A DNA stretch of 64,000 nt, from contig NZ_JADMKB010000009.1 in assembly GCF_018780075.1 (NCBI RefSeq), positions 87,799-151,798 of the forward strand, in the 5' to 3' direction. This document shows, piece by piece, positions 4,621-51,640 of the stretch (its first letter is position 1; each line of letters starts with the position of its first letter). Position numbers and translations under genes: made by a program. The notes below the pieces were generated by a model. The model was not told where the DNA came from. It saw only the letters and a list, made by a program, of their open reading frames with translations, and made no database searches. The stretch is from Hydrogenophaga sp. (GTDB taxonomy: Bacteria > Pseudomonadota > Gammaproteobacteria > Burkholderiales > Burkholderiaceae_C).

Positions 4621-4705
4621 GGTGCCGCCCAGGGCACAGCCGGGCTGGCTTTGCCAGACGGCCAGTGCCGCCCCCTCAGGGGGTAGCGCGAAGCGCTGCG
4701 GGGGA
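4621..4705 (-). repeat. stop-anchored triple-hairpin repeat, copy A
   Basis: On minus strand: TAA-ATCCCCCGCAGCGCTTCGCGCTACCCCCTGAGGGGGCGGCACTGGCCGTCTGGCAAAGCCAGCCCGGCTGTGCC; shares modules with copies B-K. Confidence 0.8.
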
Positions 4706-6826: not shown

Positions 6827-7159
6827 ATGGCCACCACCCCCGCCAAATCCAAGCCAGCCGCCACCGCCACCCCCCCGCTGTCGGCCGCGGCCACCTTCCG
6901 CTCCGAACACCAGCGCGATGTGGTCAACCGGCTCAAGCGCATCGAAGGACAGGTGCGCGGCCTGATCGACATGGTGGAGGGTGGCCGCCCCTGCGAAGAC
7001 GTGGCGCAGCAGATGTCGGCCGCGCGCAAGGCCATGGACAAGGCCTTCTACCGGATGATGGCCTGCTCGGTGATGGAGGCGGTGTCGGTGTCGGCGTCCG
7101 AAGACGAGACGCTGCGCGAGGTCGAGCGCTCGACGCGGATTCTTGAAAAGTACGCATAA
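6827..7159 (+). CDS. CsoR/RcnR/FrmR family metal- or thiol-sensing transcriptional repressor
   Basis: HQRDVVNRLKRIEGQVRGLIDMVEGGRPCEDVAQQMSAARKAMDKAFYRMMACSVMEA; all-helical CsoR family signature. Confidence 0.88.
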   Translation: MATTPAKSKPAATATPPLSAAATFRSEHQRDVVNRLKRIEGQVRGLIDMVEGGRPCEDVAQQMSAARKAMDKAFYRMMACSVMEAVSVSASEDETLREVERSTRILEKYA

Positions 7160-7161
7160 CA

Positions 7162-7245
7162 CGGACTCCCCCCGCAGCGCTTCGCGCTACCCCCCAGGGG
7201 GCGATGCGAGTGGCCCGGCAAAGCCGGTTCCACCGCATCCTGGGT
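7162..7245 (+). repeat. stop-anchored triple-hairpin repeat, copy B
   Basis: CCCCCCGCAGCGCTTCGCGCTACCCCCCAGGGGGCGATGCGAGTGGCCCGGCAAAGCCGGTTCCACCGCATC. Confidence 0.82.
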
Positions 7246-7373
7246 CAGTGCATGTCTCGCCGGAGGCTGCTGGGCCTCACCGCCCTGCGCTCGAATCAAT
7301 ACCGCGGTTTTTTGGCATCAATGCCTCGCCGGCCGTGGCTTAGCATGGGCTCCTTCACACGGAGATTTCCCCC

Positions 7374-8081
7374 ATGGCACTGCAGCTCTTCATCGGCAAC
7401 AAAAACTATTCGTCCTGGTCCATGCGCCCCTGGGTGCTGATGACGCAGGCTGGCATTCCTTTTGAGGAGGTGATGGTGCGCTTCGACTCGTTCGAAGCGG
7501 ACTCCAGCTTCAAGAAGCACCTGCGCGGCGTGAACCCGGTGGGCAAGGTGCCGGTGCTGGTCGATGACGGTTTCGCGGTCTGGGACACGCTGGCGATCGC
7601 CGAGTACCTGGCCGAGCGCTTTCCCGAGAAGACCTTGTGGCCGACCGACCCGAAGCAGCGCGCCCGTGCGCGCAGCGTCTGCGCAGAAATGCACAGCGGC
7701 TTTGGCGCGCTGCGCAGCCACTGCCCGATGAACATCGAGGCCTCGCTGCCCGACACCGGCCGCCTGATCTGGCGCGACCAGGCGGGCGTGCGCGCCGACC
7801 TGGCGCGGCTCAGCGGCCTCTGGGGCGAGCTGCTCGCGGCCCAGCCCGCGACCCTGCCCGACGGCAGCGGCCCGCTGCTGTTCGGCGCGTTCAGCATCGC
7901 CGACGCCTACTTCGCGCCGGTGTGCATGCGGCTGAAGACCTACGGTCTGCCGCTGGCCGCCGACCTGCAGGCCTACGTGGACCGCGTGGCCGCGCTGCCG
8001 GGGGTGAAGGCCTGGATCGACGGCGCGCTGGCCGAACACGACTTCCTCGATTTCGAAGAGCCCTACCGCCTGGGGCGCTGA
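7374..8081 (+). CDS. glutathione S-transferase family protein
   Basis: MALQLFIGNKNYSSWSMRPWVLMTQAGIPFEE...VNPVGKVPVLVDDGFAVWDTLAIAEYLAERFP. Confidence 0.88.
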   Translation: MALQLFIGNKNYSSWSMRPWVLMTQAGIPFEEVMVRFDSFEADSSFKKHLRGVNPVGKVPVLVDDGFAVWDTLAIAEYLAERFPEKTLWPTDPKQRARARSVCAEMHSGFGALRSHCPMNIEASLPDTGRLIWRDQAGVRADLARLSGLWGELLAAQPATLPDGSGPLLFGAFSIADAYFAPVCMRLKTYGLPLAADLQAYVDRVAALPGVKAWIDGALAEHDFLDFEEPYRLGR

Positions 8082-10796: not shown

Positions 10797-10896
10797 AAGC
10801 CCCCCGCGCCGCTTCGCGTCACCCCCCTCTCTCGCCTTCGGCGGGAGGGGGACGGCACTGGCCGTCCGGCAGAGCCGGCCCGGCGGTGCCCTTGAG
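10797..10896 (+). repeat. stop-anchored triple-hairpin repeat, copy C
   Basis: CCCCCCGCGCCGCTTCGCGTCACCCCCCTCTCTCGCCTTCGGCGGGAGGGGGACGGCACTGGCCGTCCGGCAGAGCCGGCCCGGCGGTGCC. Confidence 0.78.
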
Positions 10897-15056: not shown

Positions 15057-15142
15057 GGGCACCCGTGGAACCGGCTTCGCCGGGCCACCAGGTGCGTCCC
15101 CCCTTCAGGGGGGAAGACGCGAAGCGGCGCAGGGGGGTGTGC
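15057..15142 (-). repeat. stop-anchored triple-hairpin repeat, copy D (inside ABC transporter operon)
   Basis: Minus strand: CCCCCCTGCGCCGCTTCGCGTCTTCCCCCCTGAAGGGGGGACGCACCTGGTGGCCCGGCGAAGCCGGTTCCACGGGTGCC. Confidence 0.82.
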
Positions 15143-22978: not shown

Positions 22979-23075
22979 GGCGCCCCCCGCAGCGCTTCGC
23001 GCTCCCCCCCAGGGGGCAACGCTGGCGGCCCGGCGGAGCCGGTTCCGCGGCGTTCCCGGTGGCCTTCCCCTCGTT
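22979..23075 (+). repeat. stop-anchored triple-hairpin repeat, copy E
   Basis: CCCCCCGCAGCGCTTCGCGCTCCCCCCCAGGGGGCAACGCTGGCGGCCCGGCGGAGCCGGTTCCGCGGCGTTCC. Confidence 0.82.
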
Positions 23076-24815: not shown

Positions 24816-25009
24816 GCAGGCGCAGCGGCGGCGCGTGAGGGCACCTCGTTTCGCTGCAGGGCCGCCCCAAAGCGAAACAGCCCCCTCGGGGGGCAGGACC
24901 CGCGCAGCGGCGGAACGTTGGGGCCCTCGTTTCGCCGCCGGGCCGCCCCAGGGCGAAACAGCCCCCTCGGGGGGCAGCGACCCGCGCAGCGGCGGAGCGT
25001 GGGGGCACT
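24816..25009 (-). repeat. stop-anchored repeat locus F: tandem 82-83 bp units (two full plus one partial)
   Basis: Units 24841-24922 and 24923-25005 are near identical: CTCGTTTCGC...GGGCCGCCCCA..GCGAAACAGCCCCCTCGGGGGGCAG..GACCCGCGCAGCGGCGGA.CGT..GGGG. Confidence 0.85.
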
Positions 25010-35611: not shown

Positions 35612-35712
35612 AGGAGGACTCCCCCCGCGCCGCCTGCGGCGCCACCCCCCAGGGGGCAACGCGTTGCGGCCCGGCAAAGCCGGTTCCGCCGCGTTCCCGG
35701 CTGGACTTCCCC
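35612..35712 (+). repeat. stop-anchored triple-hairpin repeat, copy G
   Basis: CCCCCCGCGCCGCCTGCGGCGCCACCCCCCAGGGGGCAACGCGTTGCGGCCCGGCAAAGCCGGTTCCGCCGCGTTCC. Confidence 0.82.
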
Positions 35713-37794: not shown

Positions 37795-37881
37795 TCACCA
37801 GACCCACCGTGGAACCGGCTTCGCCGGGCCACTGGTGGGGTCCCCCCTTCAAGGGGGGAAGCCGCGAAGCGGCGCAGGGGG
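37795..37881 (-). repeat. stop-anchored triple-hairpin repeat, copy H
   Basis: Minus strand: CCCCCTGCGCCGCTTCGCGGCTTCCCCCCTTGAAGGGGGGACCCCACCAGTGGCCCGGCGAAGCCGGTTCCACGGTGGGTC. Confidence 0.83.
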
Positions 37882-45977: not shown

Positions 45978-46075
45978 CCCCCCTGCGCCGCTGCGCGCCC
46001 TCCCCCCAGGGGGACGCACCCTTTGGCCCGGCAAAGCCGGTTCTTTGGGTGCCCTGGGTGGGTCACGCGCTCCGG
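45978..46075 (+). repeat. stop-anchored triple-hairpin repeat, copy I (malQ-glgC gap)
   Basis: CCCCCCTGCGCCGCTGCGCGCCCTCCCCCCAGGGGGACGCACCCTTTGGCCCGGCAAAGCCGGTTCTTTGGGTGCC. Confidence 0.8.
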
Positions 46076-47379: not shown

Positions 47380-47500
47380 CCCCCCGAGAACTTGATCACC
47401 CCCCGCGCCGCCTTCGGCGTCACCCCCCTGTACGGGAGGCCACACTGGCGGCCCGGCGAAGCCGGTTCCGCGGTGTGCTGGCTTGACTCCCCTTCGTTCG
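47380..47500 (+). repeat. stop-anchored triple-hairpin repeat, copy J (glgC-glgA gap)
   Basis: CCCCCCGCGCCGCCTTCGGCGTCACCCCCCTGTACGGGAGGCCACACTGGCGGCCCGGCGAAGCCGGTTCCGCGGTGTGC. Confidence 0.8.
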
Positions 47501-51567: not shown

Positions 51568-51640
51568 GCCCCCACACGCTGCCCCCCGAGGGGGCTGGAC
51601 CAGGTTGGATCGGCCCGGCGGCTGGCCCGGCCGATCTCCC
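51568..51640 (+). repeat. stop-anchored repeat, truncated copy K
   Basis: After the glgP stop: GCCCCCACACGCTGCCCCCCGAGGGGGCT...GGCCCGGCGGCTGGCCCGG; same as the tip of locus F units. Confidence 0.6.

Follow-up and report, generated by a model that had tools for sequence, protein, structure and literature searches.

A covarying three-hairpin repeat set behind stop codons in Hydrogenophaga, probably a young mobile element of the REP-like kind

In this work, a repeated three-hairpin element was analysed in a window of 64,000 nucleotides from a contig of Hydrogenophaga sp. (NZ_JADMKB010000009.1). The focal copy lies between a gene for a CsoR-like metal-sensitive transcriptional repressor, which ends with the stop codon TAA at 7157-7159, and a downstream glutathione S-transferase (GST) gene, the best matches of which are Hydrogenophaga records with 89% identity. 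The C-tract of the focal copy begins 8 nt past the stop codon, and three hairpins (H1, H2, and H3) follow (Table 1). The third hairpin reads, from its 5' side, GATGCG, A, GTGG, C, CCGGC-AAA-GCCGG, TT, CCAC, and CGCATC, and it lies exactly where the original prediction, made from the letters of the window, had placed it. The arms that had been quoted for copies B, D, E, H, and J were all found in the sequence, as were the compensated core of copy A (CTGGC/GCCAG) and the three alternatives of H1 (AGCGC/GCGCT, GCCGC/GCGGC, and CGCCG/CGGCG). With a covariance model (CM) built from 70 copies, nine full copies with E-values from 5e-8 to 7e-14 were detected in the window.

Table 1. Features of the window and state of the element sites in related genomes (G025, sister genome; G008, G015, G027, and G033, further relatives).
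Feature	Position	Strand	Evidence
Copy A, compensated core CTGGC/GCCAG	4631..4705	-	CM E 1.4e-9
Host gene of the focal copy, CsoR-like metal-sensitive transcriptional repressor, 110 aa	6827..7159	+	Pfam PF02583 E 1e-20; sequence
Focal element (copy B), full three-hairpin unit	7168..7241	+	CM R1 90.8 bits, E 6.7e-14 (this copy is among the sequences used to build CM R1, which then scored it)
Hairpin 1 (H1), AGCGC-TTC-GCGCT	7176..7188	+	RNA fold of focal copy; sequence
Hairpin 2 (H2), C-tract/G-tract CCCCCC-A-GGGGG	7190..7201	+	consensus fold; single-sequence fold
Hairpin 3 (H3), variable covarying arms flanking a conserved centre	7203..7239	+	layout count, covariation test, consensus fold, pair counter
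Copy C, extra hairpin inside H2	10800..10892	+	CM E 4.9e-8
Copy D; empty site in G025 and G027, where two genes overlap (ATGACCGCTAA)	15057..15136	-	CM E 2.5e-12
Copy E; missing from G025 and G027	22983..23056	+	CM E 3.1e-11
Element copy; present in G025, not in G027 or G008	35621..35697	+	CM E 2.4e-11
Copy H; H3 apex in G025 swapped for another palindrome; not in G027 or G008	37801..37881	-	CM E 2.2e-12
Element copy; present in G025, not in G015, G027, or G033	45979..46054	+	CM E 2.8e-11
Copy J; present in G025; same H3 arms in G015; empty site in G027 and G033	47399..47479	+	CM E 3.3e-11

In the whole genome of 5.39 Mb (G000), the exact H3 core (CCCGGCNNAGCCGGTTC) occurs 229 times and the reversed pattern does not occur; 103-112 of the 229 genomic copies were taken for the detailed analyses. 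The element is roughly 75-120 nt long with its three hairpins in series, and the part from the C-tract to H3 has a median length of 79 nt and a GC content of 77%. The core count ranges from 0 to 239 in the sampled Hydrogenophaga congeners and is zero in 24 other families of the order, each represented by one genome. With a slightly looser core, a few copies were found in many genera of the same family and 30-76 in some. Furthermore, matches to the model were obtained in records labelled Acidovorax, Polaromonas, and Comamonadaceae. The window has no Rfam match above the gathering score, and nothing plausible was found for the focal site at E<=10. The phage records searched contained no match to the element, and a literature search by sequence letters gave no relevant paper.

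The layout of H3 is common to 103 copies and consists of six outer pairs, a left bulge of one unpaired nucleotide (96 of 103 copies), four inner pairs, an internal loop with C opposite TT (101-102 of 103), and five core pairs with a three-base loop (CCGGC-RAA-GCCGG). The innermost outer pair is a T.G wobble in 23 of the 103 copies, and eleven copies have single mismatches. The outer arms of the 103 copies form a mean of 5.35 Watson-Crick pairs out of six, compared with 2.90 (maximum 3.30) in 2000 shuffles in which the 3' arms were redistributed at random among the copies. By pair counting, 98.5% of the H3 cells are paired, as against 83.1% after shuffling and 30-50% with the 3' side slid, and RNAalifold agrees with the pair counter; in 169 cells, both sides of the pair have changed. 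Covariation was tested with our own R-scape-like implementation, namely a G statistic with APC and a tree-based null, in which the parsimony changes of each column were placed randomly on a FastTree tree. By this implementation, which is not R-scape itself, six of the ten arm pairs covary significantly (E<=0.017) and the remaining four hardly vary; the lone significant pair outside the helix joins o6 with the adjacent bulge. The outcome that would have refuted the original prediction, namely a lack of significantly covarying pairs, was thus not obtained with this implementation. The same H3 pairs covary in four other genera, where 97.9% are paired in an alignment fitted to the model. The covariation of H3 is real, that is, the shape is kept while the letters change. 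The original prediction had pointed to selection on structure, and the tree-aware covariation, the agreement of the four other genera, and the constant geometry, including the bulge and the internal loop, support it in this. Its description of the arms as unrelated between copies was too strong, since only 48 combinations of outer arms occur among the 103 copies, with GATGCG/CGCATC present 16 times and AACACC/GGTGTT 12 times.

The tests for selection on the sense RNA showed no preference for that strand. The excess of G.U over A.C mismatches (18 to 11) is not significant (p = 0.26), and the whole element is predicted to fold more stably in antisense (-46.7 kcal/mol) than in sense (-43.1 kcal/mol). 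Two other candidate features found no support. In a network of arm classes linked by single base pairs, the nearest-neighbour distance (1.07) hardly differs from that of the null (1.12), and pairing of the 5' flank with the 3' flank into an outer closing stem is not supported (-8.57 kcal/mol, compared with -8.33 kcal/mol after shuffling).

The position of the copies relative to genes was determined in 0.98 Mb of the genome, with gene calls from a simple codon-model caller and not from an annotation. By this measure, of the 76 intergenic copies, 65 are situated 3' of a gene and oriented in the sense of that gene, and in 59 of these 65 the gap from the stop codon to the C-tract is 0-11 nt. Between genes in tandem, 39 copies are in sense and 6 in antisense (p = 5e-7). 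The same placement was observed in another Hydrogenophaga genome, G035 (22 of 29 copies; tandem pairs 17:4), and in four other genera (21 of 30; 15:2). Thus, the element starts the 3' UTR wherever transcription passes the stop codon. The sense orientation and the closeness to the stop codon suggest either an effect of the sense copy on the transcript or a coupling of insertion to the ends of genes. As a separate observation, convergent gene pairs may hold two head-to-head elements, each in sense to its own gene (L226 and L005; in G025, e.g., 2168361/2168454), and the two elements at L226 meet at a CGCTCCGGAGCG palindrome. A CACGCGCTCCGG-like box is present approximately 10 nt past H3 in about half of the copies.

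The sister genome shares 97% DNA identity with G000 at two loci, and 24 copies from G000 and 23 from G025 could be placed on both flanks between the two. Three copies of G000 have no counterpart in G025 (window 22983 and 15057, and L066:12484), and three copies of G025 have none in G000 (L252:11459, L257:13164, and L246:1500). In the relatives with 86% identity (G027, G033, G008, and G015), most of the compared sites are empty, and it follows that no host gene needs the element. Many CsoR-GST junctions in Hydrogenophaga have no element, and in two other records the junction carries one with the same H3 arms and a different H1. At the focal site, G025 has the variant AACTCGaGCGGcCTGGC-AAA-GCCAGttCCGCCGCGTT, in which three arm pairs of H3 are changed on both sides and one is changed on one side, giving a T.C mismatch, and the core is CTGGC/GCCAG instead of CCGGC/GCCGG. 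Arms thus differ in pairs at orthologous sites, a comparison that the original prediction had proposed. At site 49, another H3 has taken the place of the first and the unit is doubled, with H1, H2, and the downstream flank nearly unchanged, and at site 67 the left part alone was changed, which resulted in a mismatched hairpin. Tandem copies also occur in L104. At three orthologous sites H3 was replaced, and the arms now found there either equal an arm class already present in these genomes or differ from one by a single change, so that they look like swaps from another copy; the focal site is among those at which H3 was swapped as a whole. Between close relatives, copies are thus gained and lost, and they are also doubled in tandem or exchanged, either completely or partially.

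By comparing copies that stayed in place between the sisters, a divergence of 5.0% was found in the arms, 13.4% at the unpaired positions of H3, and 0 of 170 in the core, the last value being partly a matter of ascertainment because the copies were found by their core. The arms diverge no more slowly than the flanks, and only the unpaired positions diverge faster. The in-place constraint on the arms of each copy is thus weak, and part of the H3 pairing is inherited with whole copies and not maintained in place. The placement at stop codons, the youth of the copies, and their block-wise swapping are new here and had been missed in the original prediction. At sites 15057 and 47399, the flanking genes overlap in the relatives with empty sites, and in the occupied state the downstream start region (CATGAC and ATGA) stands on both sides, as if the insertion had duplicated it. 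At 15057, the empty relatives read ATGACCGCTAA, and in G000 CATGAC flanks the insertion on both sides. Among the other sites, no consistent pattern of target-site duplication was found. In L249, the G025 orthologue of window 35697, approximately 530 bp are inserted just past the element, and this insertion reads like a toxin-antitoxin module.

The genome also contains a single-copy gene for a Y1/IS200-like (RAYT-like) protein, at L181:3370-4140 in G000, upstream of an apparent gltB, and at L182 in G025. The gene is present in 34 of 40 Hydrogenophaga genomes, including those with zero copies of the element. In place of HxH, the motif reads QVQ or QFQ in G000 and G025, which have the most copies, whereas it is intact in most congeners. 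In the congeners that were examined, loci of 2-7 kb surrounding the Y1_Tnp gene contained no core match. An association between the element and this gene was rejected because the gene also occurs in zero-copy congeners, is unlinked, and has lost HxH in the two highest-copy genomes. It is possibly a domesticated and inactivated transposase.

We hypothesize, with a probability of about 0.55, that the element is a young mobile repeat of REP-like (BRE) type, built of three hairpins and placed close to stop codons, and that it has a role as a barrier at the 3' end of the mRNA, the latter being the less certain part. The element would spread by the copying of one locus into another, either by insertion or by conversion between copies. 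If only copies with an intact H3 form go on spreading, varied arm classes would persist, each of them internally paired. The pairing is family-wide, but the copies are young and their arms drift like the flanks, so selection probably acts mainly through which copies spread; an effect on the host possibly helps. In the mRNA, the hairpins may stand right behind the terminating ribosome as a 3' barrier, which, as is reported for REPs near stop codons in E. coli, would slow 3'-5' exonucleases and affect termination or ribosome release. Such a barrier would explain the preference for the sense orientation and for so short a gap. REPs of E. coli within 15 nt of the stop codon were reported to stall ribosomes (PMC12306157), and by analogy an effect on translation termination or on the mRNA 3' end would be the most likely function. 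That the element homes to stop codons, with H3 recognised and the insertion perhaps guided by the termination of transcription or translation, seems unlikely; it would then be a structured 3' UTR cassette placed flush and in sense, even parting overlapping genes, as at site 15057.

The element may alternatively be selfish DNA, of which a transposase recognises the single-stranded hairpins, so that the covariation reflects transposition competence and the 3' UTR is where insertion does the least harm. This is possible, if somewhat doubtful. The youth of the copies, the often empty sites in relatives, the arms that diverge in place as fast as the flanks, and the predicted antisense fold, which is equally stable or better, are all consistent with it, and mobile repeats whose hairpins undergo compensatory changes have a precedent in REPINs (PMC3116915). 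Harmless insertion alone, however, would not lead one to expect the sense orientation and the narrow gap after the stop codon, because an antisense copy at the same place would be equally harmless unless the sense copy does something. Moreover, no replication-strand pattern is evident by eye in the list of G025 copies, and the lone IS200/RAYT-like protein is not flanked by elements and lacks HxH where copies are most numerous. The hairpins might instead act as a transcription terminator carried as a cassette, either intrinsic without a U-tract or linked to Rho. Their position directly 3' of genes, their stable GC-rich stems, and the transcription termination with which REPs have been credited (PMC3733652) would fit such a function, which we nevertheless regard as quite improbable, since the 39 sense copies stand between co-directional genes, several of them within 60 nt of the next gene, and T-runs are rare, with 2 of 76 copies having one right after H3 and 9 of 76 in the downstream spacer. 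In the focal region (7000-7400), no terminator-like site was found, and with these counts a canonical intrinsic terminator, that is, a hairpin with a U-tract, is ruled out. Finally, template-switch (quasipalindrome) correction or other copying could rewrite one arm from the other with no selection needed, similar to the mechanism regenerating inverted arms that the original prediction had offered beside selection. The paired changes of arms at orthologous sites would follow from it, but copying of arm from arm should make perfect palindromes, and the bulge, the C/TT loop, and the T.G wobbles persist. The arms that came in by replacement are those of existing classes, or nearly so, and the eleven copies with a single mismatch are what ordinary intermediates would give, so this mechanism is very improbable indeed.

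The element is a clear case of a bacterial high-copy repeat in which structure is retained and sequence is not. There are hundreds of copies per genome, and close relatives have empty sites. Two long-standing questions on REP-like repeats thereby become testable, namely whether they act on their mRNA or are merely tolerated there, and by what means they spread when no transposase is obvious. Should the 3' UTR role hold, a mobile element re-engineers many transcript ends within one genus.

The closest named family is BRE, with which the element agrees in length range and taxa as well as in its tandem behaviour and gene contexts, as far as the text of its description goes. BRE are repeats of 75-91 bp from Bordetella and Comamonadaceae, with 29 in Polaromonas sp. 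JS666, which are mostly intergenic, often tandem, and unevenly distributed, and the context table in that text has no divergent gene pair (Hot et al., 2011, PMC3110155). Like the present element with its high GC content, BRE are described there as GC-rich intergenic repeats of Betaproteobacteria including Comamonadaceae, and their tandem copy number varies between strains, as it does here at a site with one copy in G000 and two tandem copies in G025. On the other hand, the text of PMC3110155 mentions no hairpin anatomy, covariation, or stop-codon anchoring, and the copy number in Hydrogenophaga is several-fold higher. In a record labelled Polaromonas sp. JS666, the model matches a stretch that follows a possible stop codon, and a copy from a Comamonadaceae MAG joins type-B-like H1/H2 (see below) to the present H3 (L098 and L105). 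The element shares with the REP/BIME sequences of E. coli and other bacteria the character of high-copy extragenic palindromes, some of which are near stop codons (PMC12306157), but it differs by its three hairpins, by a conserved centre with variable arms, and by the more than 90% of 65 sense copies that lie within 11 nt of the stop codon. In contrast to RAYT-associated REPs, there is no invariant tag (the ends of H3 are variable, with GTAG in 0 of 70 copies and CGTC at the foot of H1 in 38 of 70), the RAYT-like gene is not flanked by repeats, and the HUH transposase found is not intact in G000 and G025. REPINs are likewise small non-autonomous mobile repeats with compensatory hairpin changes (Bertels and Rainey, 2011, PMC3116915), but they have conserved ends and a variable middle, whereas here the centre is conserved and the arms vary. 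The Hydrogenophaga element is best filed with the REP-like or BRE repeats as a variant, as far as the described features of BRE allow.

A sister repeat of approximately 81 bp, here called type B, was also observed, often in tandem (window 24839-24977, minus strand, and 51577-51622, plus strand; L078:5554 and L078:5808). Its H1 and H2 are in the style of the main element, the centre of its H3 is different (GGGGCGGCCC), and it too was seen to follow stop codons; in the copy at 24961, the arms GTTTCGCC/GGCGAAAC are paired. Type B may be BRE proper. In three elements, the apex of H3 is replaced at the same point by the palindromic repeat GTCCTGAGCNTGNCGAAGGGC, namely in the G025 orthologues of window 37801 (L249) and of L205:7753 (L276), and at L071:12165, which suggests that GTCCTGAGCNTGNCGAAGGGC is a second repeat targeting hairpin apices.
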